A DNA stretch of 34,953 bases from an uncultured Opitutia bacterium (GTDB lineage: Bacteria > Verrucomicrobiota > Verrucomicrobiia > Opitutales > JABJCN01): positions 1 to 34,953 of the forward strand of contig CAJWWL010000004.1 of the NCBI GenBank assembly GCA_913048125.1, read 5' to 3'. Below, in pieces: positions 10,634-30,736 of this stretch. The notes below the pieces were generated by a model that saw only the letters and a program-made list of their open reading frames with translations, was not told the origin of the DNA and made no database searches. A program made the position numbers and the translations under genes. Within the stretch, counting starts at the first letter, position 1. The number at the start of each line of letters is the position of its first letter.

Positions 10634-11092
10634 ATGGAATGGCCAGTAATTGAAGGTAAACTCGTGAAAGGTCATCAGGTTGCCTCTGGAATGGCTAATG
10701 ACGATCGATTTCCTGAAGGAACTCTTGCCTTACAAGCCCCGTTATTTGCGGAAATGGGGTTTCCTATAGACCACCTTCACTTCGGCACTTTAAATATTTC
10801 CATAGCACCCAAAGAGTATGAAACCGTCCAATCAATAAGGACGTTTAGGAATATTAGTTGGCACCCAAAGACATCACCTGAGGATTTTTCCTTTTACGAT
10901 TGTCGAGTTCGAATTCCGGGAGAGAAGCTTTTCAAGAAATCACTTGTATACCGCCCGCACCCCGAGACTAAACCTGAGCACTTTCAAGAATCTACGGTGT
11001 TGGAGGTGATAGCCCCATGGATTGAGAATATCAGTTACGGTGTAACCATGGAGCTAGCTATGCCCCCTGAGCAAATTCGAATTGGGAACTAG
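10634..11092 (+). CDS. Small protein resembling CTP-dependent riboflavin kinase (RibK/DUF120 fold)
   Basis: 'IEGKLVKGHQVASG', 'HFGTLNISI' and 'ESTVLEVIAP' resemble the G-rich N-terminus, GTLN motif and EIIAP block of archaeal RibK proteins as remembered. Starts 6 bp after the ADH stop codon. Confidence 0.55.
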   Translation: MEWPVIEGKLVKGHQVASGMANDDRFPEGTLALQAPLFAEMGFPIDHLHFGTLNISIAPKEYETVQSIRTFRNISWHPKTSPEDFSFYDCRVRIPGEKLFKKSLVYRPHPETKPEHFQESTVLEVIAPWIENISYGVTMELAMPPEQIRIGN

Positions 11093-11850
11093 TTGCCTCC
11101 GCCGAGTGCCTCGGAACGTTCTTTGAGAATGACCTTATACTTACGTCCGAAATCTGGATATTTCTCGGACATCTGATCAATGGTTCCTTTGGCTGTGTAA
11201 TAATCACCCATCTCGGCAGTGAGTTCCTTATTGGACTTGGAGAGCAAATTCTTGTTGTTTTCAAGAGTCGCCTGCTCTTCTTCTGTTAAGTCGTCACGAT
11301 CCGCAAAGGCAGAATTTGCACGCTTCTTCTGCTGACGAAGGTAGCGAACAAGACTGTTGTCGTAGAGAACATCTATACGTGGTCGGTTCTCGAGATCGTC
11401 GAGGCGGTTTTTCAGGTTGTTGTTAGTAGACTTAAGGGCTTCGTAGTCGGCCAACAATTTCTGATTCTTTTCCTTGGTGGAGGAAAGTTCTTTTTCAAGT
11501 TGGCGAACGGTAGTGGTTGTATCAGCTGTACTGGCTTTAATATCATCACGTTCCTTAGTGACATCTGATAGTTGCTTCTGCAGATCTAGAAGATCCTGTT
11601 CGAGCTTGGGCTGTTTCTCTGTAAAGGTTGAGTTTTGTTCGGTAAGTAAAGTCACTTGTTCCGAAAGCTCGGTAATTTTTTGATCCTTTTCTGCAACTTG
11701 TGTCTCAAGTCCCTGAAGAGCTTCTTGCACTTTAGTAAGACTATCCTTGGCAGCTGTCAGGTCAGTGCCGAGCTTGTTGTGTTCCTCTTCAGAAATACAG
11801 GAACTTAGAAGAAGTGAGATAACGAGAAGCGCGAATGCATAACGGGTCAT
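11089..11850 (-). CDS. Coiled-coil lipoprotein (253 aa)
   Basis: Lipobox LLSS|C in MTRYAFALLVISLLLSSCISEEE. Long heptad region. C-terminal domain shared with the 11940..12587 product. Confidence 0.82.
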   Translation of the reverse strand: MTRYAFALLVISLLLSSCISEEEHNKLGTDLTAAKDSLTKVQEALQGLETQVAEKDQKITELSEQVTLLTEQNSTFTEKQPKLEQDLLDLQKQLSDVTKERDDIKASTADTTTTVRQLEKELSSTKEKNQKLLADYEALKSTNNNLKNRLDDLENRPRIDVLYDNSLVRYLRQQKKRANSAFADRDDLTEEEQATLENNKNLLSKSNKELTAEMGDYYTAKGTIDQMSEKYPDFGRKYKVILKERSEALGGGN

Positions 11851-11939: not shown

Positions 11940-12587
11940 TTAATCCAAGCGAGACAAAGTCTTAGCCTGCTCGTACTTAGCAGCGAAAGAGGGGTCTGTC
12001 TGTGCCAATATGTCGAACTTCCCTAGCTGGCTGAAATGATTACCGAGCTCAAGCGTGAGTTGCTGGTTGGATTTTGTGCTGCCAGGGTTTTGTTCTCGGT
12101 ACTGCTGGACGACAACACTATCGAATAATGCATCTGCAGCCTTCTCAAATCTAGTAACTCGTGCTTCAGACTCACGAACTTGGTCAGATAGCGCTTGCTG
12201 GGCTGTCTGCTTGTCTGCCTCAAGAGAAGATATTTGCCCCTGTAAAGCATTAAGCTCAGTGTTCTTTGCAACCAACTGAGACATTGCGGTCGCAAGATTT
12301 TCACGGAGAGTCTGAAGCTGGGATTCCAAATCTGCAATTGATGTCTGGACACCTGCTATATCGGAGGTAAAAGCGCCTGTTATAGTGTCATACTTGGCAT
12401 CGACTGACTCTGGAGTTAAGGCATTAGGGTCTGGTTCTTCTTCAACAGTATCTTGGACTTTATTGATGTCCTTTTTTAGACTGGCGAGAATCTTATCAAT
12501 ACGATCAACCTCTTCTTGTTTAACGCCGCAACCGGCTAGTAAGCACAAGAGGAATGAAAAGGTTGTAGTGTGGAAGTGCTTAATCAT
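11940..12587 (-). CDS. Coiled-coil lipoprotein (215 aa), paralogue of the neighbouring lipoprotein
   Basis: Lipobox LLAG|C in MIKHFHTTTFSFLLCLLAGCGVKQEE. Coiled coil, then a C-terminal KSNQQLTLELGNHFSQLGKFD...PSFAAKYEQAK segment. Confidence 0.82.
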   Translation of the reverse strand: MIKHFHTTTFSFLLCLLAGCGVKQEEVDRIDKILASLKKDINKVQDTVEEEPDPNALTPESVDAKYDTITGAFTSDIAGVQTSIADLESQLQTLRENLATAMSQLVAKNTELNALQGQISSLEADKQTAQQALSDQVRESEARVTRFEKAADALFDSVVVQQYREQNPGSTKSNQQLTLELGNHFSQLGKFDILAQTDPSFAAKYEQAKTLSRLD

Positions 12588-12651: not shown

Positions 12652-15600
12652 CTAGTTCTTCTCAATGAATATGCGTAGGAATTGTTTACCTCCCGCATCA
12701 GCCTTACTAGTCTTTGCACGAGCTTCAAACCGTTCGAACCTACTGGTAGCAAAAGGTTTTCCATCAGGAAGATTAGTTTGAGGCACTCCTTTAAGTGCAC
12801 CCCGGAGTTCGACTTGAGAATCATCCCAAGCAGCGGCGTTGCCGAGGTCAGAGGTTAATTGCACACTGAGATCAAGTGTACTGTCTACCGTAGCCTTTAT
12901 ACGATAGAAGAATATTTTGATGTTGTCACCAGAGTTATCGAATGTGGGGAGAATGGCCCGGTTGGATCTAACTGGATCTCCACCCAGAGCATATTCAAGA
13001 AGGTTGGGAACACCATCGTGGTCAGGGTCCGCAACTGGGGCACGATCCTCGACAGAAAGCTGAGATAGCCCATTGGCTTGCGCCCATTTGTTAAAAGGAT
13101 CAGAACTCTGCACGATCACCTTGCGTGTGACCTGCACAGCTTTGTTACCGGAGAAGTCCTCCACATCATACTTGATGATGAATTCACCGGGTTCAGAAGT
13201 ATCGACCTCGTCGAGGGAACCACCGTCATCAATGAATGGAGTAAGGTTACCGTCAGTGTCATCAAGAGCGGTGGCTCCAAAGTCTTCGTAGACCGAGCCA
13301 ACATCGACGAAAACCTCAGTATCACCAATAAGAGTAATAACAGGGGGAGTGACATCATTGGATATGATGATCTTACGCTCAGCGATTGAAGAATTGCCGC
13401 TAGAGTCAGTTGCGGTGTAGACCAGCGTGTAAGGTTGTACTGATTTCTGCGATGTATCGATACCGGCTGTAGACATCAAAGCATGTATCTGATCCTCAGG
13501 CACAGCCCTTTTATAAATCTGTATTTCATCAATGAATCCATCGAAGAAATAATCATTGCCCGCACCGTTTGCACCAATTGTAGAAATACCTCCGGGACCC
13601 ATATTTATTGGAACGATGGCAGGCATTGCAGTCACAAGTTCACCACCGACGTAGATTGATTTCAAAGTTCCGTCGTAAGTGACAGCCAAGTGAGTCCATT
13701 CATCAAATTCAAAATTGGCGTTGGAAGGTATTCTGGTATCGTTGAGATTGCCCCCTTGAACCAGACGATAGTTGAGCTCATCAGAGGCTTCAAAGTAGAT
13801 TGAATACTGGGTATTGACGGATCCATTAGCTGTCTTCTCAAAAAGAAATCCATCCTGTGCGTAATCCGAAGCTTTGATCCACATTGAAATAGTCATTTTC
13901 TGTAAATCCAATTTGCTAGCGCCAGGCACCAGTATGTAGTCATCAATACCATCCAACTTAATGGATTTACCAAACTTGCCATCCTGCCACGCTTGGTTGG
14001 GTTCCTGAAAATTGTTAAGGGTTGCGTGAATATTGGAGATAGACTCGGTGACCTTGTCACCAGTACCATCATCAAAAGTCCAGTTGGCAATTAGACCTTC
14101 GGGACGCCCCTTTAAGGAAACCTTTGCCGTTACATTTCCATCGAGGGCATCAACAGCTGTGTAACCGGGGTCTTCGAAAGGCTTGCCCACTTCAAAAGTG
14201 ATTGTTTCACCCCCGACTAAGGTTATGACGGGAGGAGTTGTATCAACGACTCGGATGGCACGTTCTCGCCGGGTAGCAGGATTGCCCTTTTCATCGGTGT
14301 AACTGTAAGTAATTCGGTAAGTGCCTAGGGTAAAGTGGTTGACGGTGCCTTCTACTTCGACGGCATTAGCTCCTATCTCCTTGTCGTATCTGTTGAAGAG
14401 CTTGTAACCAGGTTCAACATAGGGTGTACCAGCCTCCCAAACAAGGTCGATCTCACCATCAGAACCTGGTTGAAGTACAATTTCAGGAATAGGAGGATTG
14501 TCCTGAACGATGACAGTACGAGTCGCGGTCGCTATGTTGCCAGCGGCGTCCTCACTTCGATAAGTAACGATATGCTCACCTATTTGGGAGGTATCCAGTA
14601 ACTTTTCCTCCTTAGTGCGACCGTGGAGTGAATAATGTGACTGCAAAGCGCGCATGGCAGTTTCAACAGACTCCTTACTCAGTTCACGATCGTAGAGAAG
14701 AATTCGAGCAACTTCGCAATTGGAGCGCTCCCCCCAGTTACCTCCAGCGGCAATTTGCCCCGGTTTATTCCAAACGTTATTAAAACTCCGGTTACCGGTA
14801 ATACGTAATACACCGTCCTTCCAGAAGGTGGCAGCAGGGTCTGCATCATTATTGACCGTTCCGGCGTGAATGTGCCAATCAATATCGCCGCCGGTATCAG
14901 AGTTGTAGACCCAACCTTCTGGATGCCAAGACGCAGAATTGCCACCGTGAAAGCCGAAGAGCCAATTTCGGGACCGCGAAGATATTATGCGCCGCTTGGT
15001 ACCATCAATGTAGCGAGCGACGGTCAACACTGTATAGCCCTCTTTGTGGTCGTCGAAGTTCTTGGTCGTCCACATCAAGGATTGACCATCAAAGCGCAGA
15101 ACTGGTTCACCATTAAGGGCGTCTGCATGCCAGGTAATTCCAGATCCATTGAAGAGATTCATATGGTGGTTCCTTCCAGAGACATCCAACCAGGGTGTAG
15201 TCACAAGGTCGCCATCTTGTAGTTTGCCCTCGTAGAAAGTTGCATCCAAATCGAGCATAAGGCCAACCTTGGGGAACTCTGCACTGCTTTGTATAGGCAC
15301 CTCCCCATCGAGGCTATCCAAGGCAGAGTAACCTGGCTCAACAAATGTATCTCCAAGAGCTACAACGACTGGTTCAGCACCATTTAGAGTGATAACCGGA
15401 GCAGTGGTGTCACGTACAGTAACCGTACGGTCGAGTGGAAGAGCGGTCTTTCCATCGCCGGACCGATAGGTGTAGGAAATCGAATATGAGCCTAGGGTCC
15501 GTGTATCAACTTCACCTACACCAGGTAGGTTTGCATTGACCAAGGTGCCATCGGGTAGATTGACGGTAGCACCGGGATCGGTGAATTCAGTACCGGCTTC

Positions 15601-18600
15601 ATGGTAAACATTTGCATCTCCGTTAAGTGTCAACAACGGAGCAGCAGGGTCTGGGATAACTTCTACTATGCGAACGTTCTCAGTTACATTCCCGGCAGCA
15701 TCCATAGCATGATAGTAAACCTTGTATTCTCCAGGAACTGAAGTGTCTACGTGTGTACTGTTGGATGCACTCATTAGGGCTACAACCTCACCAGCGCTTA
15801 AGGCCCGCTGGAAGATATAAACATCATCAAGATACTCAGCAAAACGCTGACCGGGCCATGCACCAACGCGCCAGATGTCAGTTTTGCTCTGGATATCAAC
15901 CTTACCAACATAATCACCATCCACGTAGTATAAAGTCTGTTCATCCTTACCTACCGCAGCGATGTGATGCCAACCAGAGTAGTTACTGGCAGCCATGTGA
16001 AAGCCAGTACCCTGAAAACCCTTGCCGCCAGCACTATCGTAAAGGCCGAGGTTTGTCTGACCATTTTCAATGATAATCTGGTGGTCATTTGCCTGTCCCC
16101 TGAAAAGAGTTCTCCAATTGGAAGCATATAACTTCTTGAACCAGGCAGCTGCAGTCCAAGCATCACCAATGTCGACAGGACCAATTTCCATCCGAGCGTT
16201 TGCACTAGCTGTTGGGATATGCAGACTACCACCGGACCGTCCATCAGTGCTCCAACGGGCACCATCAATAAATCGCCCTGGGAACTGGCCACCCTCAGAT
16301 GTATCTTTACTAGGTTCCTGAGTATCGTCGAATGAATAGTAGGCTACGGCATCTTTAGGTCTGGATACTAGAGCTGCATCACTGTCAAAGGAGTCCGTGA
16401 CAGTTGCAGCGGGATCCTCCCAGATCTGACCAACAATAAGTGTCACCTTCTCAAGTCCTCCTTGTGGGTGCGGTTTTAATGTAATTGTGGGCGCTGAGGT
16501 ATCCGTCACGATAACCGTACGAACCACTTCAGAAGCAGCCCTTCCGGCACCATCAGAGTAATTGTAGGTAAGTGTATACTCGCCTGGAGTGTTGATATCG
16601 ACAGTCCCCTCGCCTTTCAGATCAGCTTCTAGCACATTACCGCCCATGTCAGTAACCTTGGCTCCTGGGTCAGTGAAAGCACTTCCTGCCTCATGATGAA
16701 CCTCAAAACCACCCTCGATGGCGATAAAAGGTAAGCTGGCATCCTCCACAACAACAACCGTGCGAGTGGCCCGTGCTTCGTTGCCCGCCTGATCAGACAC
16801 AACGTAGTCGTAGCTATAAGTACCAGGAGTGCTGGTATCGATACTAATCGAGGGAGAGGCTAGCCAAAGTCTACCCTGTTCTGCAGGATAGATGACGGAG
16901 CGCAACCCACCGGGCAACTGGACTGAAGGCTGAAACCGAGCACCACTGGTATATTCCATGAAGAGAATTGCCACTGGGTAAAGCCCCTTTGAGAGATTTA
17001 CTTTACGGTATCCATTACGCCAGTTGGAAACAAAGGATTCAGAACCCAAGTCGCCAGTAGCCTCGAAGATACCGTCTTGATCGAGATCCACCCAGAAGGC
17101 CATTCGGTCATCAATGTCGCCATTACCAAATTCATACTGACCGTCTGTAGGCGCATTGAAAAAGCCCCTGAAGAGGACTTGATACTGGTCGTTACGATTG
17201 ATGGAAGGTGCAACAGCTCGAAACTGACCATCATTGAATAGCTCAAGTGTACCAGAATAAATTGTGGATTCACCTACGGGGTCTGTAGCCAACAACCCTT
17301 GGTTTCCATCGATGTTCATCAGGGCATCGTTGGATTGATTCATAAAACCCACCACGTCCAAAGCACCAGCGGTATATTTCAATGGATCAGGAAGAGTGAA
17401 TTCACCATCAACGAGATCAGAGGCGGTAGCACCAGGATCCTCAACAAGTGCGTCTTTTTCGACTTTAATGACAGCATCACCGAGCAGTGTAATAACAGGC
17501 GGTGTAGTATCAACAACCGAGACAACCCGAATCCTTTCAACAGCCGGACGACCCTGTGAATCCTGAAAGTTGTAGGTTATGATGTACTCACCAGACTCAT
17601 TGCCACTTGGTGTACCAACTACCTCGATTAGGGAAGGATCAAGACTGTTGCCATCTCCATCGATCAAAGCAGCACCTTCATCCTGGTAAGGGATTCCAGC
17701 TTCATGCTGAACAACAGGATCCCCAAGCATATTAATTGCGGGAGAACCGGGCGCGGGAATAACTTGGACAGTACGGGTTTGGGTTACGCGATTTCCAGAT
17801 GAGTCCACAACAGCGTAGCGAATTTCAAAGTCACTCTCAGAGGAAGTGTCAACCGGACCCCGAACGGGTGCATCGTCCTGAAGGCCATATTTATTATTGA
17901 GGTAGTATTGGAGAGCATCGATTTCGCCATAAGAGAGGACTCGATCGTAAATGAGAACTTCAGAAACCAAGCCACTTGCAGCTTCACGAGTAGTTTGCCA
18001 ACCGCCGAGCTGAAACTGGCCAATATCACCAGTACGATTAGGAATTAAAGTGAGGTCCACACCATCACCCCAGAATTGACAGCGCCCACCACCGGCAGTG
18101 CCGATATTGAGGTGAGGCTTGGTGTCAGCAGGTTGCCAGAGATCTTGTCCGGCTACCCAACCTGCGGGATGAAAGCAGTTTACATGGTTATTGTGATAAC
18201 CAAAAATCCAGTTATGAGTTCGAGAGGCAATAAGTCGAAGATTGTGATTGCCATCGTAACGTGCGACTGAAGCAACCGTGTAGCGCCGACCAAAAGATGT
18301 GGTGGTGGCAAGAAAGGTTTGACCATCAAACTGAACGGCAGGTAAGCCTCCCGTATCGCTGGCAACATATCGACCAGTACCGATATTGTTGTCGAGATGA
18401 TTACCCTGTCCGGATATATCACGCCAGAGCGAGACAGGGTCACCATCTTTAGCCAAGGGGATACGTGAAGCGTCGAGGTGAAGGACCAAACCTCTGTCGG
18501 GGTAGATGCCGGAGGTCATAATGGGGATGGCACCATCGACGTTGTCGGTGGCGGTCGCCCCAGGGTCAGTCCATTTCGAACCGAGGTGAACGGTCATTTC

Positions 18601-21600
18601 AGCCTCGCCTGCAAGGGTTAGCACCGGTGGTACAACGTCAGTGACGAGAACTCTACGAACAGCGGTAATTGCAGCAATACCATCTCCATCAACAAAATTA
18701 TACTTGAGCGTGTAAGTGCCAGGAACCGTGGAATCAACAGTTCCTGAAATAACTATAGAACTAGCGTCCAAGACATTGCCATCCTTGTCCTCGACAGTTG
18801 CTCCAGGATCCTTCCACTCGGCACCTGCAGCAAGGGTGATAGCGCGCTTACCCTCAAGATGGATAGCGGGAGCACCCTTGACACTTTCGACTATAAGGGT
18901 CCGTACTGCCTTGGTCTGGTTACCTGCTTGATCGGTAGCAGTGTATTCGATAGAGTGCTCTCCAGCTTGGGATAGATTAAGTTCGGTAACCTCGACCCAG
19001 AGCCCGTCTTGTGAGGGATCGGTAGGATCAATGGTCGCCATAAGTGCCGGACCAGCACCTTCTGGTGTACGAAAACTGGCACGGATTCTTGAACCACCGC
19101 CACCTTCCATCTGACCGATAGCAACCTTATAGTACCCTTTTCTAAGATGGACGGTGCTACCACCTTCGATGACTCCATTGTTCATCCATTCAGATCCGAA
19201 GTCTCCATTGCGTTCGAAAGTGCCATCTTGATCTAAATCGACCCAGAAGGTAGCCCAGTCATCACGTCCAGTGATAGCGAACTCGTACTTGCCGTCGACC
19301 CGAGCGTTAAAAGTAGAAGTGAAAAGGTTCTGCCACTGGTCATTGCGTTCAATACCTACACCAGCGGCACGAAAAGAGGCGTCACCTTCAAAGTATAGAG
19401 GACCGTCGAGATAGTTCTGACCAGAAGGCTGGTCTTGGAATAGACCGCCATTATCATGGAAATAAAGACGCAAGTCACTCCAGCCTTGCTGAAACCCCCT
19501 GTGGAGAATGCGGTTTTTTTGAATAAGTGAAGTTAGTACCTCGACAGAACCATCTGCAAGATCGATGGCAGATGCTCCGGGATCGATAAACTCACCTCCA
19601 ATAGGAATTCGGATCGTCTCCCCTCCAACCAAATTGATGGACGGTGCAACCGTGTCGACCACGGTAACTTTTCGTTGTACGGATATGGCACGCAGGCGCT
19701 CAGATGAAATGAAGTCGTAGGTTAGATTATAAGTGCCGGGGCGCAACGTATCAACATGACCAGATGTGTTAACACCAGAAGCGTCTAGAGTATTACCGCC
19801 AGCATCAGTTACAATAACTCCAGGATCTTCGAAAGTGGAGCCAGCCTCTAAAGTCAGTTCCGTATCTCCCTTGAGAGTAATGACCGGCAACGTACTACCC
19901 TCCTCCACGACTACCTTGCGAGAAGCAGTGGAAGTGTTACCGGCTTTGTCTGCGGTGATGTATTCCAGAGTGTAGATGCCCGGTGTGTTAACATCCAAGG
20001 CTGTAGCAGTCGTGACCTCACCAAAGTCTAGACCATACTTGCCATCAAGAAGGCTTTGCACGGCGATCAGTTCGATTTCTGAGAGCTTACGATCATAGAA
20101 GAGAAGCTCTGCCACTTCGCATCTGGAGAGTTCGTTGTTATCGTTATACCCGCCAAGCTGAATAACACCAGGACTGAAACTACCAGGATTGGCTCCAGAT
20201 TTATCTGAACAGATGAGCTCACGATCGACCCAGAAAGTCCCAAGTGCATCCTCGCCGATACTACCAGCATGAAGGTGCCAACTTGTGTCCGAACCGCCCT
20301 GATTCCATATCCATCCGTTTGCATACCATCGCCGATAAGTGTTTCCATGAAAACCGAACAACCAGTTCATACCTCTAGATGAGATGACACGTTCGCTATC
20401 ACCCCCGGTGTAACGAGCTACTGAAATTATGGAATATTCCTTCGTGGTGCTGAAGTCCGTTGTTGTCCAGAGAAGGTCACCTCCATCAAAGCGAACGACG
20501 GGGCGTCCTCCAACAACATCAGCATGCCAAGTCGGGTTGTCCTTAACGTTGTCTGCATCATTTCCGGCGGGGGATAAATCAGACCAACTGTTAACCACGG
20601 AACCCTCTTCAAGACCATCAATTTGGCCAGCGTCCAAGTGCAAGACAAGTCCCTCGTTGGGGATTACTCCAGCACGGATAACTCGCACTTCGCCGTCCAA
20701 AGCATCTATGGCGCGTGCTCCTGGATCTGAAAACTCAGAGCCTTTCTTGTGAATAATAGGACCACCGACCAAAGTGATAACAGGAGGTGTCGTGTCGACG
20801 ACATGCACGGTTCGCGAGATCTCGACAGCCTTGGTTCCGCTGGTACTGGTGTAATTATAGGTAATGGAGTACGTACCTAGAGTAGATCCATCTGGCACTC
20901 CGGCAACTTGGACAAACGCAGTAGGCAAGGTCTGGCCGCTTCCCGTTGTAAGGGTGACACCAGCATCCTCGTATGGAGCTCCAGCCTCGTGGGTAATTTC
21001 AGCATCTCCAACCAGAGTCATGATTCCAGCTTCAGGATCAGGTTCCACGATTATGGTACGAAGAGCTACGTCAGAATTACCTGAGCTATCTGTTGCAAAA
21101 TAAGCAGTTTTCCAACTACCTGGAGAGGTGGTATCGATCTTGGTATTACTGAAGGGAAGGCCCTTGAGTTCGTCTTCAGAAAGAGCACGCTTAAAGACAT
21201 AAAACTCATCCAGATACTCGGCGAAATGCTGGTCAGCACCCCAGTTACCGACCTTGGTAACCTCGGTAGTACTTTTACGGTCTGAGGAGGTGGCGTAGGC
21301 ACCGTCTTTGTAGAAGTAGGTTCGATCTCCCTGACCCACAGCGGCAATGTGTGACCATTGAGCAGTCTGGCTAGGACGAATGTAAAAACTTGAACCACGC
21401 CAGTCTCCACGACCATTCACGAAGGTCCCTAATTGGTTATTGTCTACATGAACGATAAGCTGATGGTCACGAGAACTGCCACGGGTCAGAGTCTTCCACT
21501 TGCCCGCTCCGTACAGGTTTTTGAACCACACCGCGATCGTCCACTCATCAGCAAGATCAACCTCATTGCCACCTAAGTCGAGACAAGCACTTGGCAGTTG

Positions 21601-24600
21601 TGGAATATGAAGTCCATGACCATAGCGTCCGGGTCCACCACCCATCGCACCCGCCATGGGAGTGGCGTTGGCATGGTTGCCAGAGCTGTCTAATCCAGCT
21701 GCCTCAGCATCATTGAAAGAATAGTACACCACTGCGCCCTCAGGCATGGTAGAGTATTCGATTTCATCGTCTGCATTATCAGAGACAGTAACACCGGGCT
21801 CTTCAAAGTCTTGTCCGATGAAAAGCTTGATCGTGTCCCCACCAGCGAAGGTGAATATAGGCGGTTTATCATCTATGACGCGAATCTTGCGAACGACTGG
21901 TTCAGCAATACGCCCATCTGAGGTGTAGCTGTAGGTAAGCAGGTACTCACCCACTTTTGAACTATCGATATCACCTTGAATCGTGAGTGCGTTTGGATCT
22001 GAACCAGCGGGGTCAGTAATAACTACACCGGGTTCTTGAAAATTATCATCCACGGAGAGGGTGACCTCAGCTTCCCCCTTCAAGGTCAGCACTGGAAGAT
22101 CAATGTCTTCAACTACGTGGATAGTGCGAGTGGCAACAGAGCGGTTCCCGCTAGAATCTGAGGCAGTGTAGCGGATCACGAATGTTCCTGGCTCACTACT
22201 ATCAAGGCCGATAATGTGATCATCCGGTGTCAATCCGTTAAGACTGTATTTGGAATTTAGAAAAAGTTCGACTAGCAGGCGATCTTCTTCGGGCAAAACA
22301 CGATCAAACAGTAGAATCCGAGCCACCTCTGCATGCGAGGGCTGTTCTCCCTTGTTTCGCCAACCACCAATTGCGAAGAGACCTGGCTTGAAATTACTGT
22401 TGTTCGACCCTCGACCACCAAAAACCTTCTGAACACCATCCTTCCACAAAGAGCCTTCGGGGTCAGATTGGTTACCCATTGTTCCAGAATGTAAATGCCA
22501 CGCTTTGCTCTGATCATTGTCTGTATTTACGATCCAACCTTCCGCATACCAGGCAGCAGTGTATCCGCCGTGGTATCCGAAAAGCCAGTTACGACTCCGA
22601 GATGAGAAAATACGGCCCATACGCTCTCCAGAGTAGCGAGATATCGTAAACAGGGTGTAGCCATTGGTTAGGTTGTCGAAGTTACGGCTGTTCCACATGT
22701 AGGTGTCGCCGTTAAAGCGTAATACTGGCTCCCCATTGAGACCGTCTTCAATCCAATCTGGACCAGGACCGTCATGATTCGACATATGATTTCCAAAACC
22801 GGAAGAATCGGGCCAGGCATCAGTCAATTTGTCTCCATTACCAAGAGAATCCTTCAAACTGGCCGCATTGAGGTCAAGAATGAGGCCAGTCTTTGGGAAA
22901 CCAAGATCATCAGCTACGAGAACTTCACCGTCAACAAGGTCAGTAGCGGTGGCACCAGAATGCTCCAGCGTATCCCCGACCTTAACATGAATCACCGCTT
23001 CACCACTTAAAGTAATTACAGGAGGTGTGGTATCTAAAACTGAAACCGATCTAAAAACGGGTTCTGCAATTAAGCCGTCAGCATCAGTGTATTCGTAGGT
23101 CAGGGTGAAATCACTTGTCTGGCTACCGTCCTCTGGAAAACTTACCTTACCAAGGAGGTTTGACTCTAATACATTTCCTTCGGAATCAGTGGCTTTAGCT
23201 CCAGGATCTGTGAACTCCGTACCAGCCTCATGCTGAATCAATGTATCACCATTGAGGACAACTACAGGACGATCAGTATCAGGTGTTATGATAATTTTTC
23301 TCGAGGTTGTGCCTAGATTCCCACTGGCGTCGCGCGCTGCATAGAGTAGATTGTATGTGCCAGGAGTCGTGAGATCTGGCGCTGGAGCGTCTAGTCCATT
23401 GAGTCCATACTTCGCATTAAGATAGGTTTCGACGCTGTTGCGAACATCAGCATTTACCCCGTGGTCGTAAACTAGTACTTCTGCAATAAAACCCCAACCG
23501 GGCTGAGACCCATTCTGATAGCCGCCAAACTGTAGTTGCCCAATCTGACCATTACGAGAAGAGTACTGTACCTTCTCACGGGTGTCAGCGTAGAATCTTG
23601 TATTATGGTCACCGAGGCTAATAGCAGAGTAGAGGTGTGGATCCTTGGTAGCCGTAACGTCGGACATGTAGACCCATTGATCAGCATGCATACGGTCCTC
23701 ATAGCCTCTGTGATAGCCAAGAATCCAATTATTAGTGGCAGAGGAAATAAGTCGCTCATTACTACTACCCGAAAGGCGGGATACCGAAAAGATAGAGTAA
23801 CGGTTATTGAAGGATTTTTGCGTTCGAATAAGATCCTGCCCATCAATCTGAACAGCAGGGCGTCCGTTGAGAGCTTTTAGCGCTAAAGTAGGCTCTCCAG
23901 CAAAAGCGCTGGCATCATTAAATTGACCAGAAAGATCGGGCCATTCTGTAAAGACCTCTCCATCGGATAGATTTAGTCGGCTCGCATCCAAGTGCAGAAC
24001 CAAACCCTCTCTGGGAAAGCCTAGATTGCTGTAGGCAGTCAACGCAGCGCCAGAGTCGTCGGATACAGTCACACCAGGATCATTGAAGTTTTCGCCAAGC
24101 TTCAACGAAATCTCGGAATCCCCAAGAAGGGTCAAAATAGGCGCCTCCCGATCGACAACGACAACCGTACGATGGACGACCTCGGCAGGAATACCATCTG
24201 CATCAACGAATTCGTAAGTGAGAATATGCTCTCCCAAAGTGGAGGTATCCACAGTACCTGCAACCTCTACATCATTGGCATTCAAGTCCTCATTGAATGC
24301 ACTCTTGACCGTGTAACCGGGTTCGGTGAATTCAGAACGGATTGAAACTTCCATGCGAGGTTCACCCAGTAGTGTGATGACAGGCAGGTCTATCGAGTCT
24401 ACTACAACAATAGTCCGCTTGGCTGTAGTCTCGTTTCCAGCAGCATCTACAGCACGGTAGGTAATTTCATACGAACCCGTCTTGTCCAAAGCCATTGGCT
24501 TTTCGATTCCCCACATTCCCTTCTGGTTCACTGCTCCAGGATGAATAATTTCACGAACGGAGCGGTCCTTGTGCTCTACAATGGTCACCCATTGTCCACC

Positions 24601-27432
24601 TTCTTCAGTCATCACATCGATGCGGTAATCCGTAGGTAGACGGTCTCCGTTGCGGCCAATCCGATCTCTAGACCAAACGATGCGGTCAATGGTCATCAAA
24701 TGGGGAAGATCAATCTGCACCCAAGCGCTAGTTGTGTGAGCGCGCCAACTGAAACTGTTTCCGTATAACCCGTCGTTGATTTCGTTCAGGTTATGAGTCG
24801 CATCGTTTGCGGATGAACTAGCTGTTGCTACCGAACCTAAACTAGCCAAAGCAACGTTCTTTCCTCCAGAAAAAATTTCAAGTTCATCGATGCAAGGCTG
24901 GTGTTGATTCACCTTATCTACGACAAAACGAACTTTAAGTGCCTCCACGGGATCGAATGTCTCGGTATTAGCCAAAGGAGTGACAATACCCGGCAATCCA
25001 AATTCTGCACTGAGGCGACTACCGTGAGAGGATTCCAAATGAGCAATAGCAACTTTGTACACACCAGGTTGTAGCTGAACCTGACCATATCCGAACCGGA
25101 TACTACCATCGATCCATTCAGAACCATTATTGCCATCGAGTTCGAAGACACCATCCTGATCCAAATCGAGCCAAAAGGATCCAAGATCATCTGGCCAAGG
25201 CATTCCAAATTCATAAACGCCGGCTGTTCCAGCACGAAAAACTCCAGTAAAAAGGTTCTGGAAGTTATCGTTGATAGTGATCCCTGTACCCAACGCATTG
25301 AATGCGGCATCCCCGTTGACTTCCATTCTTCGCTCAAAAGTATTTTCTCCTGCAGGCTTAGCTTCTAGCAAACCACCGTTGTCATCCAGAATCATCAGGC
25401 TATCTGGACGACTGGCCAGCATGTAGCCTCTAGCATGAAGTTTATCCCATTCATAGAGGGAACTATCCGCAAAGATGACACCATCAACAGCATCCTCAGC
25501 AGATGCACCCGCGTCAACGTACGGATTACCGAGAAGATGTCGAACCTCTGACTTGCCATGGAGTGTAAGAACTGGAGGCACGTTATCAGCAACAGTAATC
25601 GTACGGAAGACTGTCTCAGCGGACCGACCCTCTGCATCAGTAAAATTGTAAGCTAGTATGTATGTGCCATCTGCACCTCCGTCCACAATACCGTCTACCT
25701 TGATACCTGAGGGGTCCAGAGAATTGCCATCCGCATCGGCAACCGTTGCACCGACATCATTGTACTCGGTGAGTACTTGATGCTGAATGAAGGTTTCGCC
25801 ATTTAGGGTTATCACCGGGGCAACTGGATCGAAAATGCGGACCGTGCGTTTCGCTTCCGCTGAAGCGCCAGCTGAGTCGGTAGCCAAATAATTAACAGTC
25901 CAGTCGCCAAGAACAGAGGTATCGATGGTCTCTGCAATCAACCTACCACTACTCTGATAAGCAAGCAAAGCAGCGGCATCATCTAGAGCAACCTTGTAGA
26001 TACGCAGGTCATCTACACGCCCTTGAAAACCTGCGTATCCATCGCGCCAACCGAACTTAACATCCACGACCCGATCACTAAAAGACTTCTGGTCGTCATT
26101 ACCTGTGAAGACCGACAGACCATCCTTGTAGAGGGTAGTTACCCCATCGTTGAAGCTGAAAATCCAGTGACTCCACTCACCATCAGGCAATGAGTTGGGC
26201 TGCGTAACATGGGAGTTGCGCCAGTCACCTTCCAAATTCCAACGCAGGCGAAGCTTAGTTCCCTGACGCTCAATTAATGCTAAACCGTCCGCCCAAAACA
26301 CATAATTGCCACCAGTTGGGCGCATCCAAAAGGCAATCGTTCCAGAGTTGGTATTCTTCAAGCCATCAAAGTCGTCAGCCTGAACATAATCATCGCCGTC
26401 CACCTCAAGCCCCCAGCCTAATCGACCAGTCATACGCTGGGGGTCGCCTTTAAGTACGCCAACCGTACCCGGCAGCACAGAGTCGTTTACCTCGGCGCCT
26501 GAGTACTCATCCAAATTCCACAATGCGGCGAGATTGCTATCAATCTTTGTGGCAGGCTGGTAAATTGTTCGTGTAATTTCCGATATATTACCATCCTCTT
26601 GATCTTGTGCAGTGGCGCCCTGCTCTTCGTATGCTCCACCTAAAGGCATTCGAACCAAAGACTCACCTACCGGAGTCACGACTGGGAGATGATTGAAGTC
26701 ACCCTCTCCATTATTGTAGGCAAGCGCTACCTCTTCAGCATTAAGAGCAACCTTGTACAACCGTACATCGTCAATAAACCCTTCGAACCACGAACCATTG
26801 CCATTGTCGTTGTTGGCACCAATGTAGAGATCGTTTTTCGAGTAAGTCAGATTACTGACCACACCAGTGGTTTTAAGCTCTCCATTGACGTAGGTGGCAG
26901 AAGTTGAGTTACCGTCATTAGTCAGTCCGACATGCACCCAATCGCCATGTGACAAGGAACGATAATCACCTGCGCCAGCATTACCATTACTACCATCCTT
27001 GTAACGATGGTGGATAAACCAAGCATCGCGGTTGGAATCTCCTGCCCAAAAATTATAATGCCGCCCAGGTCGACCAAAAACGCCTGCCCAACCCTCGTTA
27101 CCTTTGACAGATTTCAGCCAAAGAGTGACGGTGTAGGCTGAGACATCCATCGAAGGATCGTACTCCACAGTCACCTTGTCACCATTGCCATCAAACTCAA
27201 GCGCCTTACCAAAAGGAGCGTCTACAAGAACAGGTCCTCCAGAAGTCTTACCATCTAAACCATTCGCCGAAAGGTCGTTAACAGTTGAACCATCCAACTC
27301 TGCAAAATCAAACCACAGGACAAGGTCATCCGGACGTACATTTGGACGTATCTGTGCACTGAGGCTAGAGGCAAACAAAATGCCAAGAGCGTATCTGGTC
27401 AACTGAAGCCAGTTAGCAATTGGTAGAGACAT
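12652..27432 (-). CDS. Giant secreted multidomain protein (4926 aa): split DUF5011-like Ig repeats carrying LamG, concanavalin-like and PA14-like inserts, discoidin-like domain, and C-terminal 'DxDxDGVPNLLEYALGGDP' region
   Basis: Single uninterrupted ORF. Signal peptide MSLPIANWLQLTRYALGILFASSLSA|Q. Many 'PPVITLxG...FxDPGAxAxDxxDG' and 'DTSxPGTYxxxYxAxDxAGNxxxAxRTVxV' segments. Multiple LamG-type modules ending in 'FEGFIDDVRLYKVAL'-like sequences. Confidence 0.95.
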   Translation of the reverse strand: MSLPIANWLQLTRYALGILFASSLSAQIRPNVRPDDLVLWFDFAELDGSTVNDLSANGLDGKTSGGPVLVDAPFGKALEFDGNGDKVTVEYDPSMDVSAYTVTLWLKSVKGNEGWAGVFGRPGRHYNFWAGDSNRDAWFIHHRYKDGSNGNAGAGDYRSLSHGDWVHVGLTNDGNSTSATYVNGELKTTGVVSNLTYSKNDLYIGANNDNGNGSWFEGFIDDVRLYKVALNAEEVALAYNNGEGDFNHLPVVTPVGESLVRMPLGGAYEEQGATAQDQEDGNISEITRTIYQPATKIDSNLAALWNLDEYSGAEVNDSVLPGTVGVLKGDPQRMTGRLGWGLEVDGDDYVQADDFDGLKNTNSGTIAFWMRPTGGNYVFWADGLALIERQGTKLRLRWNLEGDWRNSHVTQPNSLPDGEWSHWIFSFNDGVTTLYKDGLSVFTGNDDQKSFSDRVVDVKFGWRDGYAGFQGRVDDLRIYKVALDDAAALLAYQSSGRLIAETIDTSVLGDWTVNYLATDSAGASAEAKRTVRIFDPVAPVITLNGETFIQHQVLTEYNDVGATVADADGNSLDPSGIKVDGIVDGGADGTYILAYNFTDAEGRSAETVFRTITVADNVPPVLTLHGKSEVRHLLGNPYVDAGASAEDAVDGVIFADSSLYEWDKLHARGYMLASRPDSLMILDDNGGLLEAKPAGENTFERRMEVNGDAAFNALGTGITINDNFQNLFTGVFRAGTAGVYEFGMPWPDDLGSFWLDLDQDGVFELDGNNGSEWIDGSIRFGYGQVQLQPGVYKVAIAHLESSHGSRLSAEFGLPGIVTPLANTETFDPVEALKVRFVVDKVNQHQPCIDELEIFSGGKNVALASLGSVATASSSANDATHNLNEINDGLYGNSFSWRAHTTSAWVQIDLPHLMTIDRIVWSRDRIGRNGDRLPTDYRIDVMTEEGGQWVTIVEHKDRSVREIIHPGAVNQKGMWGIEKPMALDKTGSYEITYRAVDAAGNETTAKRTIVVVDSIDLPVITLLGEPRMEVSIRSEFTEPGYTVKSAFNEDLNANDVEVAGTVDTSTLGEHILTYEFVDADGIPAEVVHRTVVVVDREAPILTLLGDSEISLKLGENFNDPGVTVSDDSGAALTAYSNLGFPREGLVLHLDASRLNLSDGEVFTEWPDLSGQFNDASAFAGEPTLALKALNGRPAVQIDGQDLIRTQKSFNNRYSIFSVSRLSGSSNERLISSATNNWILGYHRGYEDRMHADQWVYMSDVTATKDPHLYSAISLGDHNTRFYADTREKVQYSSRNGQIGQLQFGGYQNGSQPGWGFIAEVLVYDHGVNADVRNSVETYLNAKYGLNGLDAPAPDLTTPGTYNLLYAARDASGNLGTTSRKIIITPDTDRPVVVLNGDTLIQHEAGTEFTDPGAKATDSEGNVLESNLLGKVSFPEDGSQTSDFTLTYEYTDADGLIAEPVFRSVSVLDTTPPVITLSGEAVIHVKVGDTLEHSGATATDLVDGEVLVADDLGFPKTGLILDLNAASLKDSLGNGDKLTDAWPDSSGFGNHMSNHDGPGPDWIEDGLNGEPVLRFNGDTYMWNSRNFDNLTNGYTLFTISRYSGERMGRIFSSRSRNWLFGYHGGYTAAWYAEGWIVNTDNDQSKAWHLHSGTMGNQSDPEGSLWKDGVQKVFGGRGSNNSNFKPGLFAIGGWRNKGEQPSHAEVARILLFDRVLPEEDRLLVELFLNSKYSLNGLTPDDHIIGLDSSEPGTFVIRYTASDSSGNRSVATRTIHVVEDIDLPVLTLKGEAEVTLSVDDNFQEPGVVITDPAGSDPNALTIQGDIDSSKVGEYLLTYSYTSDGRIAEPVVRKIRVIDDKPPIFTFAGGDTIKLFIGQDFEEPGVTVSDNADDEIEYSTMPEGAVVYYSFNDAEAAGLDSSGNHANATPMAGAMGGGPGRYGHGLHIPQLPSACLDLGGNEVDLADEWTIAVWFKNLYGAGKWKTLTRGSSRDHQLIVHVDNNQLGTFVNGRGDWRGSSFYIRPSQTAQWSHIAAVGQGDRTYFYKDGAYATSSDRKSTTEVTKVGNWGADQHFAEYLDEFYVFKRALSEDELKGLPFSNTKIDTTSPGSWKTAYFATDSSGNSDVALRTIIVEPDPEAGIMTLVGDAEITHEAGAPYEDAGVTLTTGSGQTLPTAFVQVAGVPDGSTLGTYSITYNYTSTSGTKAVEISRTVHVVDTTPPVITLVGGPIIHKKGSEFSDPGARAIDALDGEVRVIRAGVIPNEGLVLHLDAGQIDGLEEGSVVNSWSDLSPAGNDADNVKDNPTWHADVVGGRPVVRFDGGDLLWTTTDFSTTKEYSIISVARYTGGDSERVISSRGMNWLFGFHGNTYRRWYANGWIWNQGGSDTSWHLHAGSIGEDALGTFWVDRELICSDKSGANPGSFSPGVIQLGGYNDNNELSRCEVAELLFYDRKLSEIELIAVQSLLDGKYGLDFGEVTTATALDVNTPGIYTLEYITADKAGNTSTASRKVVVEEGSTLPVITLKGDTELTLEAGSTFEDPGVIVTDAGGNTLDASGVNTSGHVDTLRPGTYNLTYDFISSERLRAISVQRKVTVVDTVAPSINLVGGETIRIPIGGEFIDPGASAIDLADGSVEVLTSLIQKNRILHRGFQQGWSDLRLYFHDNGGLFQDQPSGQNYLDGPLYFEGDASFRAAGVGIERNDQWQNLFTSTFNARVDGKYEFAITGRDDWATFWVDLDQDGTFERNGDFGSEWMNNGVIEGGSTVHLRKGYYKVAIGQMEGGGGSRIRASFRTPEGAGPALMATIDPTDPSQDGLWVEVTELNLSQAGEHSIEYTATDQAGNQTKAVRTLIVESVKGAPAIHLEGKRAITLAAGAEWKDPGATVEDKDGNVLDASSIVISGTVDSTVPGTYTLKYNFVDGDGIAAITAVRRVLVTDVVPPVLTLAGEAEMTVHLGSKWTDPGATATDNVDGAIPIMTSGIYPDRGLVLHLDASRIPLAKDGDPVSLWRDISGQGNHLDNNIGTGRYVASDTGGLPAVQFDGQTFLATTTSFGRRYTVASVARYDGNHNLRLIASRTHNWIFGYHNNHVNCFHPAGWVAGQDLWQPADTKPHLNIGTAGGGRCQFWGDGVDLTLIPNRTGDIGQFQLGGWQTTREAASGLVSEVLIYDRVLSYGEIDALQYYLNNKYGLQDDAPVRGPVDTSSESDFEIRYAVVDSSGNRVTQTRTVQVIPAPGSPAINMLGDPVVQHEAGIPYQDEGAALIDGDGNSLDPSLIEVVGTPSGNESGEYIITYNFQDSQGRPAVERIRVVSVVDTTPPVITLLGDAVIKVEKDALVEDPGATASDLVDGEFTLPDPLKYTAGALDVVGFMNQSNDALMNIDGNQGLLATDPVGESTIYSGTLELFNDGQFRAVAPSINRNDQYQVLFRGFFNAPTDGQYEFGNGDIDDRMAFWVDLDQDGIFEATGDLGSESFVSNWRNGYRKVNLSKGLYPVAILFMEYTSGARFQPSVQLPGGLRSVIYPAEQGRLWLASPSISIDTSTPGTYSYDYVVSDQAGNEARATRTVVVVEDASLPFIAIEGGFEVHHEAGSAFTDPGAKVTDMGGNVLEADLKGEGTVDINTPGEYTLTYNYSDGAGRAASEVVRTVIVTDTSAPTITLKPHPQGGLEKVTLIVGQIWEDPAATVTDSFDSDAALVSRPKDAVAYYSFDDTQEPSKDTSEGGQFPGRFIDGARWSTDGRSGGSLHIPTASANARMEIGPVDIGDAWTAAAWFKKLYASNWRTLFRGQANDHQIIIENGQTNLGLYDSAGGKGFQGTGFHMAASNYSGWHHIAAVGKDEQTLYYVDGDYVGKVDIQSKTDIWRVGAWPGQRFAEYLDDVYIFQRALSAGEVVALMSASNSTHVDTSVPGEYKVYYHAMDAAGNVTENVRIVEVIPDPAAPLLTLNGDANVYHEAGTEFTDPGATVNLPDGTLVNANLPGVGEVDTRTLGSYSISYTYRSGDGKTALPLDRTVTVRDTTAPVITLNGAEPVVVALGDTFVEPGYSALDSLDGEVPIQSSAEFPKVGLMLDLDATFYEGKLQDGDLVTTPWLDVSGRNHHMNLFNGSGITWHADALNGEPVLRFDGQSLMWTTKNFDDHKEGYTVLTVARYIDGTKRRIISSRSRNWLFGFHGGNSASWHPEGWVYNSDTGGDIDWHIHAGTVNNDADPAATFWKDGVLRITGNRSFNNVWNKPGQIAAGGNWGERSNCEVARILLYDRELSKESVETAMRALQSHYSLHGRTKEEKLLDTSQIGEHIVTYRSEDAAGNIATATRTVIVQDNPPIPEIVLQPGSDGEIDLVWEAGTPYVEPGYKLFNRYDKEIGANAVEVEGTVNHFTLGTYRITYSYTDEKGNPATRRERAIRVVDTTPPVITLVGGETITFEVGKPFEDPGYTAVDALDGNVTAKVSLKGRPEGLIANWTFDDGTGDKVTESISNIHATLNNFQEPNQAWQDGKFGKSIKLDGIDDYILVPGASKLDLQKMTISMWIKASDYAQDGFLFEKTANGSVNTQYSIYFEASDELNYRLVQGGNLNDTRIPSNANFEFDEWTHLAVTYDGTLKSIYVGGELVTAMPAIVPINMGPGGISTIGANGAGNDYFFDGFIDEIQIYKRAVPEDQIHALMSTAGIDTSQKSVQPYTLVYTATDSSGNSSIAERKIIISNDVTPPVITLIGDTEVFVDVGSVYEDFGATALDDTDGNLTPFIDDGGSLDEVDTSEPGEFIIKYDVEDFSGNKAVQVTRKVIVQSSDPFNKWAQANGLSQLSVEDRAPVADPDHDGVPNLLEYALGGDPVRSNRAILPTFDNSGDNIKIFFYRIKATVDSTLDLSVQLTSDLGNAAAWDDSQVELRGALKGVPQTNLPDGKPFATSRFERFEARAKTSKADAGGKQFLRIFIEKN
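13097..26545 (-). repeat. Array of 12 long protein-level modules, each a DUF5011-like Ig domain split by an inserted domain and followed by an unsplit DUF5011-like domain, closed by an uninterrupted copy
   Basis: Insert N-terminal boundaries read at about 26545, 25463, 24030, 22905, 21746, 20670, 19532, 18512, 17382, 16363, 15283 and 14113. Spacing is about 1.02-1.17 kb, except 1.43 kb for the module carrying an extra domain. Positions estimated by hand. Confidence 0.85.
24540..24900 (-). other. Discoidin/F5-F8 type C-like domain within the giant protein
   Basis: Translation PCIDELEIFSGGKNVALASLGSVATASSSANDATHNLNEINDGLYGNSFSWRAHTTSAWVQIDLPHLMTIDRIVWSRDR resembles F5/8C domains ('A.ASS....A..indG...', 'WvqIDLg....i.rIvw.rd'). 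Confidence 0.75.
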
Positions 27433-27608
27433 ACAGGAGGAGTGAAGGAATTAACTACACTAGGTGTCCGCGCACGCGAGTGCAAGTAAGTTTAATTTAG
27501 GGGGATTGAGCAGTTACCTCAAAGGTGCACACAGATGGTTAGTCTGGACATTTTCTTGAATCAAAAGTCATCTTGTCAGGGACAAATCTAAGTCATCAAA
27601 TTTTAAGG

Positions 27609-28604
27609 ATGAAATTCTCTAGAACTATAATTTACGTTACATTTGCATTAACTTTTTCGACAATACATGCAGCAAAGCTGAAGATCTTTGTCATGGCAGG
27701 ACAGTCCAACATGGAAGGTGCTGGTGTCATTCAAATCCATCCTAATAGCCGTAATGGCGGCAAGGGTACATTGGAGTACCTCTCCAAAAACAACCCCCAG
27801 AAGTTCGGACACCTGTTACAAGATGACGGTTGGATAGAACGTAAGGATGTGTTTGTACGCTATGGAAGTCGCAAAGGACCCCTTAAGCCGGGCTTTGGCT
27901 TTCGCTCATCTTCAATTGGTCCGGAATTAGGTTTCGGCACTGTGGTGGGTGATGCTCTAGAGGAACCTGTGCTACTAATTAAAACCTGCTGGGGAGGTAA
28001 AAGCTTATACACTGACTTCCGTCCACCTAGTTCGGGTATGCCTGCTAAAGAAACTCTCGAGAAGTGGCTCAATGGGGCACGTCGCAAGAATCCAAATGCA
28101 ACCTTGGAAGATGTAAAAAAGCCCATTGGACACTTTTACCGCCTCATGCTTTCGGAGGTTTCTGATACACTTGAGAACCTAGATGCATACGCGCCTGATT
28201 TCCGGAACAAAGACTACGAAATTGCTGGTTTCGTCTGGCACCAAGGATGGAATGACGGTCTTTCGCATGTTACTGTAGCCGAATACGAAACGAACCTAAC
28301 CAACCTGATAAAGGATCTACGTAAAGAATGGCATACACCAAATTTACCTGTGGCCATCGCAGTGAGCGGGTTTGGTGGATGGAGTCAGAAGATTGATAGA
28401 CGCTTAGGGATCATCAAAGCACAACATGCAGTAGCTAAACTGAAGGAGTTTAAGGGGACTGTAGCTAGCGTAGAAACCCGAGGCTATTTCCGCCCTCGAG
28501 AGGACTCACCCGGAGGGCAAGGGTATCATTGGAACAACAATGCCGAAACCTACTATCGGATTGGTGAAGGATTAGGAAAGGCAATGGTCACCCTGTTGAA
28601 ATAA
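27609..28604 (+). CDS. Secreted SASA/DUF303-family carbohydrate esterase-like protein
   Basis: The ORF track starts at 27573, but ATG at 27609 (preceded by AAGG) gives signal peptide MKFSRTIIYVTFALTFSTIHA. KIFVMAGQSNMEGAG nucleophile block and FVWHQGWNDG. Confidence 0.88.
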   Translation: MKFSRTIIYVTFALTFSTIHAAKLKIFVMAGQSNMEGAGVIQIHPNSRNGGKGTLEYLSKNNPQKFGHLLQDDGWIERKDVFVRYGSRKGPLKPGFGFRSSSIGPELGFGTVVGDALEEPVLLIKTCWGGKSLYTDFRPPSSGMPAKETLEKWLNGARRKNPNATLEDVKKPIGHFYRLMLSEVSDTLENLDAYAPDFRNKDYEIAGFVWHQGWNDGLSHVTVAEYETNLTNLIKDLRKEWHTPNLPVAIAVSGFGGWSQKIDRRLGIIKAQHAVAKLKEFKGTVASVETRGYFRPREDSPGGQGYHWNNNAETYYRIGEGLGKAMVTLLK

Positions 28605-29239: not shown

Positions 29240-30736
29240 ATGAAAATGCTCAAGCTTCTAAACATCACATTGTTCACATCGTATCTTCTGGCATTGGCCT
29301 CAATCAGCAGTGCAAAGCCAGCTTTTGATAAAAAACCCAACTTCATACTCGTCATCACTGATGACCAGGGTCATGGACCGATTGGAAGACATGGCCACCC
29401 CTGGATAAGGACTCCAAATCTTGACGAACTCTACGATACCAGCACCCGATTTGATCGTTTCTTGGTAAGCCCGACTTGCTCCCCTACCCGTGCTGCAATT
29501 ATGACAGGCCGCCACCCTCTCAAAAATGGTGTAACTCACACGATACTTGAACGTGAGCGGATGACCCTAGACGCAACCATATTGCCTCAAGTGCTAGCAA
29601 AAGCTGGTTACACCTCAGGTATTTTTGGAAAATGGCATTTAGGAGACGAGGAGCCCTACCAGCCGCACAAGCGCGGATTTGACGAGGTTTTCATTCATGG
29701 TGCCGGTGGAATTGGACAGGCTTACAAATGCTCGTGCGCAGATGCTCCCGGTAACAAGTATTTCAACCCGACAATCCGACATAACGGCACGTTTGTTAAG
29801 ACAGAGGGCTACTGTACTGACCTATTTTTTACAGCAGCTTTAGGATGGATGCATAGAGTTAAAGAAAAGAACCGACCATTCTTTGCCTACATAACCACCA
29901 ACGCTCCTCATGGCCCTTTTATTGCTCCTCCCAAAAACACAAAGCATTTTACCGATCTAGGGTTCAACGATAGGACTGCAGGATTCTACGGAATGATTGA
30001 GAATATTGATGAGAACATGGGCAGGCTTATGACCAAGCTAGAGGAGTGGGGACTTTACGAAAACACAGTCCTAATATTCATGTCTGATAACGGAATGACT
30101 GCTGCTGGTGCAGGCCAGGGCAAACTAGGAACATCTAAAGAAGGCCAACCCCTGCATCATTATAATTCCGAGATGAAAGGTCACAAAGGCTCATCGGATG
30201 AAGGAGGAGTACGAGTTCCCTTTTTGATGCGCTGGGACAGTGTTCTGAAGCCCGGCAATGAAGTTAAAAAAATTGCAGCTCATATCGATATCCTTCCTAC
30301 ATTTGCGGATATTGCAGGTATCGACAAGCTCCCGAACAAGCAGATTGAAGGTCGTAGCCTAGTGCCACTTTTAAAAGACCCGAAAGCAGTCTGGAAAGAC
30401 CGTTATCTATTCACTCAGAAAGCAAGATGGAAGACAGGATCTGAGCCGAACAAGCACCAATGGAAAGCCTTCGCGGTACGTAATCAACGTTACCGGCTGG
30501 TAGAAAACAACCTATACGACATGGTTAAGGATCCAGGGCAAACGCACAATATTGCGGCTGAGAATCCTCAAGTTGTGAAGGAACTCCGTACCGCCTATGA
30601 CAAGTTCTGGAAAGAGGCACGACCACTAATGGTCAACGAAACCGCTCCCATGTCTCGCACTCGCCCCTACCACGTGCTGTATAACAAACAGATTAAGGAA
30701 TCCGGCATCCCTAAATGGAAGGCTCCAAAGTTCTAG
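29240..30736 (+). CDS. Secreted type I (formylglycine) sulfatase
   Basis: Signal peptide. NFILVITDDQGHG metal site, CSPTRAAIMTGRHP formylglycine motif (CxPxR), GIFGKWHLG, MSDNGMT. Confidence 0.95.
   Translation: MKMLKLLNITLFTSYLLALASISSAKPAFDKKPNFILVITDDQGHGPIGRHGHPWIRTPNLDELYDTSTRFDRFLVSPTCSPTRAAIMTGRHPLKNGVTHTILERERMTLDATILPQVLAKAGYTSGIFGKWHLGDEEPYQPHKRGFDEVFIHGAGGIGQAYKCSCADAPGNKYFNPTIRHNGTFVKTEGYCTDLFFTAALGWMHRVKEKNRPFFAYITTNAPHGPFIAPPKNTKHFTDLGFNDRTAGFYGMIENIDENMGRLMTKLEEWGLYENTVLIFMSDNGMTAAGAGQGKLGTSKEGQPLHHYNSEMKGHKGSSDEGGVRVPFLMRWDSVLKPGNEVKKIAAHIDILPTFADIAGIDKLPNKQIEGRSLVPLLKDPKAVWKDRYLFTQKARWKTGSEPNKHQWKAFAVRNQRYRLVENNLYDMVKDPGQTHNIAAENPQVVKELRTAYDKFWKEARPLMVNETAPMSRTRPYHVLYNKQIKESGIPKWKAPKF

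Follow-up and report, generated by a model that had tools for sequence, protein, structure and literature searches.

A 14.8-kb gene on the minus strand of the window (the whole stretch of 34,953 nucleotides analysed here, from an uncultured Opitutia bacterium) encodes a 4,926-residue protein in which 12 DUF5011-type (PF16403) Ig-like domains, each split by a whole inserted domain, strictly alternate with 12 unsplit ones, giving 24 in total. Profile matches and predicted structures support the reading that the opening and closing halves of every split domain form a single Ig fold that closes around its insert. Its most probable role is that of a multivalent surface adhesin of the lectin type, with a presumptive binding activity.

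The giant gene and its alternating array

The gene (P0001; 12652..27432, minus strand) starts with ATG and is free of internal stops. The N terminus of its product, MSLPIANWLQLTRYALGILFASSLSAQ, resembles a Sec signal by eye and is followed by a LamG-like domain lying outside any Ig (26698..27330, minus strand; TafC/LamG-like match at residues 35-243, with LamG_3 matches in the protein). At the opposite end, a domain with a calcium-loop-like motif, 'DPDxDGxxNLLEYALGG' (12655..13101, minus strand), is common to all four giants of the host genome and to several smaller proteins; matches to it, partly incomplete, number 20 in the host genome and 29 in that of the sister species. This sharing is consistent with a candidate sorting or anchoring tag. 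Over the whole giant, PF16403 (DUF5011, Bact_surface_Ig-like) scored 858.8 bits against a curated cut-off of 27, with the unsplit copies each exceeding the cut-off and the split copies matching as two halves. Also above their Pfam cut-offs were PF13385 Laminin_G_3 (274.6 bits, five stretches), PA14 (46.1 bits, cut-off 24) and Big_3 (68.9 bits, cut-off 21.2), while GLEYA, F5/8C and NCBIfam LapB_rpt_80 matched as well.

A 77-position Ig profile built from 12 complete DUF5011-like domains resolved the protein into a string of opening half, insert, closing half and complete Ig, repeated twelve times, (N C U) x12. All 12 opening halves cover the profile from position 1 to 33-44, and all 12 closing halves run from 37-49 to 76-77. 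The independently built PF16403, run over the genome, returned the same halves in the same frame (roughly 1-31 and 40-71 of its 71 positions), in line with the discontinuous per-module matches that a sequence-only reading of this DNA had called for. That reading had described twelve Ig domains each interrupted by an inserted domain, an unsplit domain after each of them (12 complete copies, 51-94 bits each) and the LamG, PA14 and DUF5011 families, all of which hold, with the exception that one class of LamG-like inserts, termed 'LHLDA' below, gave no Pfam match in the copy tested. Its extent of 13097-26545 needs a small correction: the array spans 13111..26685, so that the upper limit was set too low, missing the first opening half (26578..26685). 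The proposed insert size of 170-230 residues was slightly off as well, inserts measuring 183-238 residues and once, in module 2, 328 residues. The array period averages 377 residues.

In the direction of transcription (all coordinates on the minus strand; Ig domains and halves assigned by profile), split Ig 1 (25834..26685) holds a LamG_3 insert (25939..26577) and has empty-site homologues; unsplit Ig 1 follows at 25591..25818 (76 bits, profile 1-76). Split Ig 2 (24400..25575) carries a PA14 insert (24484..25467) holding an F5/8C domain (about 24565..24828, by Pfam), ahead of unsplit Ig 2 (24154..24384). Two LHLDA inserts, classified by BLAST as were those of modules 5, 6, 8 and 10, come next, in split Ig 3 (23287..24141; insert 23383..24033) and split Ig 4 (22111..23022; insert 22207..22920), each with its unsplit partner (23038..23268 and 21874..22095). 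Split Ig 5 (21046..21861) contains a LamG_3 insert (21142..21747) and precedes unsplit Ig 5 (20797..21024); split Ig 6 (19906..20784) contains an LHLDA insert (20023..20679) and precedes unsplit Ig 6 (19657..19887). The Pfam-assigned PA14 insert (18979..19539) of split Ig 7 (18889..19644) is followed by unsplit Ig 7 (18643..18870), the LHLDA insert (17875..18522) of split Ig 8 (17758..18627) by unsplit Ig 8 (17512..17742), and the PA14/GLEYA insert (16846..17394, by Pfam) of split Ig 9 (16747..17499) by unsplit Ig 9 (16507..16731). The array closes with split Ig 10 (15658..16491; LamG_3 insert 15772..16377) and unsplit Ig 10 (15415..15639), split Ig 11 (14506..15399; LHLDA insert 14617..15294) and unsplit Ig 11 (14245..14487), and split Ig 12 (13363..14232; LamG_3 insert 13462..14103) and the terminal unsplit Ig 12 (13111..13344; 89 bits), which has a short loop where the others are split.

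We counted 35 split domains in a set of six proteins or fragments drawn from two assemblies (four in the host genome and two loci in the Opitutia assembly SI073_bin56), with opening halves stopping at profile position 30-44 of 77 and closing halves beginning at 33-50. The same break recurring 35 times in this set can hardly be put down to chance.

The Ig fold around the inserts

Relatives with an empty insertion site bear directly on whether the flanks of an insert belong together. Three related proteins, namely L164 and L156 (both from the sister species, G002) and the C15 giant, have a first Ig of the array type that is whole and bears a short loop; the equivalent first Ig of the window protein is occupied by a 213-residue LamG domain. 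When this insert was omitted, the best match of the window flanks was the empty L164 domain (48% over 175 residues). The terminal Ig of the giants likewise retains a short loop at the split site. At the sequence level, the empty-site relatives settle the question in favour of one fold.

AlphaFold2 was run on two LamG-type modules, 11 and 12, from shallow alignments (7-8 sequences) and with middling pLDDT: module 11 together with both unsplit neighbours gave a pLDDT of 77.5 and a pTM of 0.54, and split module 12 alone (opening half, insert, closing half) 74.4 and 0.70. In the split Ig, strands are predicted at 2-5, 10-12, 24-27 and 35-41 before the insert and at 268-275 and 281-289 after it; in the unsplit Ig, at 2-5, 10-14, 24-27, 33-38, 50-56 and 69-76. 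With four predicted strands before the insert and two after it, spaced like those of the unsplit Ig, the insert thus appears to stand in for the loop that joins strand 4 to strand 5. In sequence and predicted strands alike, the Ig fold is discontinuous around a whole domain, as in a split Ig-like domain.

Alternatively, the flanks may form no common Ig at all, with the halves acting as linkers or pairing with a neighbour (for instance, a closing half packing against the next unsplit Ig) and the LamG and PA14 domains arranged as beads on a string. The halves score just 4-29 bits each. Yet all breaks coincide at a single position of the profile, with the missing part found after the insert each time, complete insert-free homologous domains occupy the equivalent position, and the number and spacing of predicted strands match the unsplit Ig. 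Moreover, the neighbouring Ig domains are already complete and therefore have no need of extra strands. We regard this arrangement as very improbable. Separate linkers or complete domains at the flanks were the outcome that the sequence-only reading had set beforehand as speaking against its proposal of inserts within the Ig fold; found instead were complementary, colinear parts of one profile, which, with the insert-free homologues and the predicted four-plus-two strands, bear out a single fold around each insert.

Insert classes, relatives and precedents

By BLAST, the 35 inserts fall into LamG_3 (16/35), LHLDA LamG-like (10/35) and PA14 (7/35) classes and two singletons; the window protein holds four, five and three of these classes, respectively, one PA14 copy having a nested F5/8C. 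The LHLDA copy tested (module 11) had no Pfam match beyond the Ig at E<=0.01 and is not PF13385 Laminin_G_3, but its predicted structure matches ConA-like lectin folds in Foldseek. For the LamG_3 module model, the best Foldseek match was domain 4 of the arabinanase AbnA, followed by sialidase lectin modules, pentraxins and CBM40. Matches of the modules to clostridial neurotoxin binding domains were dismissed as reflecting only the shared ConA-like lectin fold. The same inserts occur in other genomes without these Ig halves, which argues that they are autonomous domains, and some copies may have lost binding. Identity between Ig halves was 0.418 within and 0.408 between insert classes (p about 0.05), that is, there is next to no sorting, and hence one host type carries unrelated inserts. 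The GC content of inserts (0.486) and Ig parts (0.498) gives no sign of a recent foreign origin.

A second level of nesting, a domain within PA14, has moderate support. Module 2 is doubly nested, with F5/8C placed between the PA14 body and its terminal 'IxPxxxxQxGxW' motif. L079 and L027 have this motif too, in PA14-like copies that lie outside Ig domains of this type. An LHLDA-like LamG (by reading) seems to occupy the corresponding position within a PA14 (by Pfam) of L164. Together, these patterns prompt a tentative reading, to which we give somewhat less than even weight: one loop of a fixed Ig host would act as a socket that takes unrelated binding domains (LamG_3, LHLDA-type LamG or PA14), inserts could hold a second socket (PA14 with F5/8C or LamG), and the lineage would re-arm a mixed lectin array by inserting or replacing whole domains at fixed points. 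In the C38 giant (L010, residues 2463-2946), one Ig seems to hold, besides the usual LamG insertion, a second one of ~440 residues that lies between its first strands.

The host genome contains four such giants, and relatives occur in another species of the same genus. Modules in collinear positions are of the same insert class in both species (C15/L156, C199/L157 and window protein/L167), so that exchange must be old or slow, apart from the difference in the first module. Full split modules were present in two of the three genomes of the family, the third being 61% complete. We surveyed 390 evenly drawn genomes of the phylum with profiles that run from the opening half through the insert to the closing half, often scoring the best 6 candidates per genome, so that rare cases could be missed. 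LHLDA matched in 83 genomes, PA14 in 37 and LamG_3, at E<=1e-20, in 127; of the matches listed, those covering the split form in full length all belonged to the window's own genome. The inserts are thus common in the phylum, while the split form with these inserts was seen, among the matches listed, in this genus only. Viral contigs scanned with the PA14 module gave no match.

Searching 385 genomes of the class with the Ig unit retrieved tandem unsplit arrays. Giants found in this way in G642 proved to be plain tandem arrays of unsplit domains; two of them, L150 and L151, each exceed 5,800 residues with more than 20 consecutive unsplit DUF5011 domains. In L129 (G572), a DUF5011-like Ig is broken after 'DPGAS' by an RCC1 propeller, twice (residues 128-463 and 646-1001), differing from the giants in both split site and insert, and in L055 (G365, another family of the phylum) an LHLDA domain seemingly lies inside a Pfam-assigned DUF2341. 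These two cases indicate that domain insertion into such beta-sandwich hosts is not confined to the genus; among the genomes searched, it is the serial arrangement with lectin-type inserts of this kind that was limited to it. A 14,967-residue open frame near 3958000 of G115:C1 (L067) has LHLDA-type repeats separated by fibronectin-III-like stretches.

A ligand-binding domain is also inserted in an Ig-like domain in the integrin beta hybrid domain and in the pilin RrgA, each time as a single insertion and in families unrelated to that of the giant. Split Ig-like domains are a recent discovery, made in a small number of Gammaproteobacterial RTX adhesins, and are reportedly hard to spot without structure prediction. 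In Aeromonas hydrophila AhLap, Vibrio cholerae FrhA and Marinomonas MpIBP, they project a ligand-binding domain away from the adhesin axis, and one published module binds fucosylated glycans (PMC12077191, PMC10865825). The giant shares with these adhesins a discontinuous Ig holding a domain (ligand-binding in the RTX adhesins), PA14- or sugar-binding-type inserts and extender Ig domains in between. However, AhLap has two split Ig-like domains plus other split domains (PMC12077191), as compared to 12 alternating with plain Ig domains here, and FrhA has one, around a sugar-binding domain, in which the part ahead of the insert amounts to one strand of about 12 residues (PMC10865825), leaving the bulk of the Ig after the insert, whereas about 35 residues (strands 1-4) precede it in the giant. 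RTX nonapeptides (GGxGxDxx[LIFV]) had no match in the window protein or the five related proteins and fragments. Unlike the RTX adhesins, the giant thus lacks RTX repeats, seems by eye to have a Sec-type signal (RTX adhesins have a C-terminal type I secretion signal and lack a signal peptide at the N terminus), uses DUF5011-type hosts and includes LamG-type inserts and a second nesting level. As nesting itself is already published (PMC12077191, PMC10865825), the earlier view of repeated nesting as unusual stands for the serial, alternating, multi-insert form, the only new part, and not for nesting as such. We found no description of a serial split-Ig array in the literature searched, most subscription journals lying outside the search.

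Proposed function and genomic surroundings

We consider the protein probably to be a fibrillar adhesin that is exported by the Sec route and exposed at the cell surface, with socket and spacer Ig domains forming a rod that presents sugar-binding-type domains. Most types of adhesive domain in fibrillar adhesins are present a single time in each protein, with PA14 listed as adhesive and Big_3 as stalk (PMC8286594). Through PA14 and Big_3, the giant combines at least one adhesive Pfam domain with at least one stalk domain, as fibrillar adhesin-like proteins do (PMC8286594). Like these, LapB-type repeat proteins included (PMC8286594), it pairs a tandem Ig stalk with adhesive-type domains, and it matches LapB_rpt_80, but its 12 adhesive-type domains sit within stalk domains. 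In the proposed rod of 24 DUF5011-type Ig domains, plain spacers would alternate with sockets. A socket would be a single Ig fold in which a whole sugar-binding-type domain takes the place of the loop from strand 4 to strand 5, be it LamG_3, the other LamG-like family or PA14, the latter alone or holding F5/8C. The chain would run through strands 1-4, bud the binding domain sideways and then add strands 5-6; since it returns to complete the Ig, we propose that the binding domain is tethered to the rod at both ends, with its far face outward. Twelve side domains, one per ~377 residues, would yield a multivalent binder of mixed specificity, with polysaccharides, algal or detrital surfaces and other cells as candidate targets. 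This reading draws on the folds matched by the inserts, on the ligand-binding domains projected by published split Ig domains and also on the SASA esterases and the sulfatase encoded nearby on the opposite strand. Surface location, rod shape, carbohydrate binding and adhesion are all what we infer from these features.

A PF16403 match is no proof of surface exposure, and it is compatible with an S-layer-like or matrix role. The giant could instead be a mainly structural split-Ig protein, of an S-layer, sheath, cell-cell matrix or stalk, in which LamG and PA14 domains serve lateral assembly. Four giants in a single genome, regular spacing and weak similarity to the Ig part of an algal mastigoneme protein (9b4h) would suit such a role, which we nevertheless deem improbable, as unrelated insert folds in mixed order fit varied ligands better than a lattice and match carbohydrate-binding modules.

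The neighbourhood raises another possibility, namely a substrate-capturing scaffold for polysaccharide degradation that holds sulfated or acetylated glycans by the esterases and sulfatase encoded nearby. Two SASA-family esterase genes (6987..8537 and 27573..28604) and a sulfatase gene (29240..30736) lie close by and suggest a glycan-using organism, and the top structural match of the LamG_3 insert is an arabinanase domain. These enzymes are, however, encoded on the opposite (plus) strand with nothing to indicate co-regulation, and the conserved order runs the other way, from the giant to two coiled-coil lipoprotein genes (11940..12587, directly downstream, and 11089..11850, both on the minus strand), whose orthologs keep this order behind the 3' end of the orthologous giant in the sister species (G002:C129). 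A degradative scaffold therefore seems unlikely. The two lipoproteins have related C-terminal ends and may anchor the presumed adhesin or help its export.

Compared with the RTX adhesins, the giants belong to another phylum, use another Ig family and a different split point and have no RTX repeats, which suggests that the principle arose more than once. They offer natural controls within one gene set, with sockets that are empty next to others that are filled and a single host type bearing several inserts, which allow testing Ig-loop splitting as a general route to the sideways display of a binding domain. They also provide a sequence rule for finding such proteins, complementary half-matches of one profile roughly 150-350 residues apart, applicable to annotations that now list fragments only.
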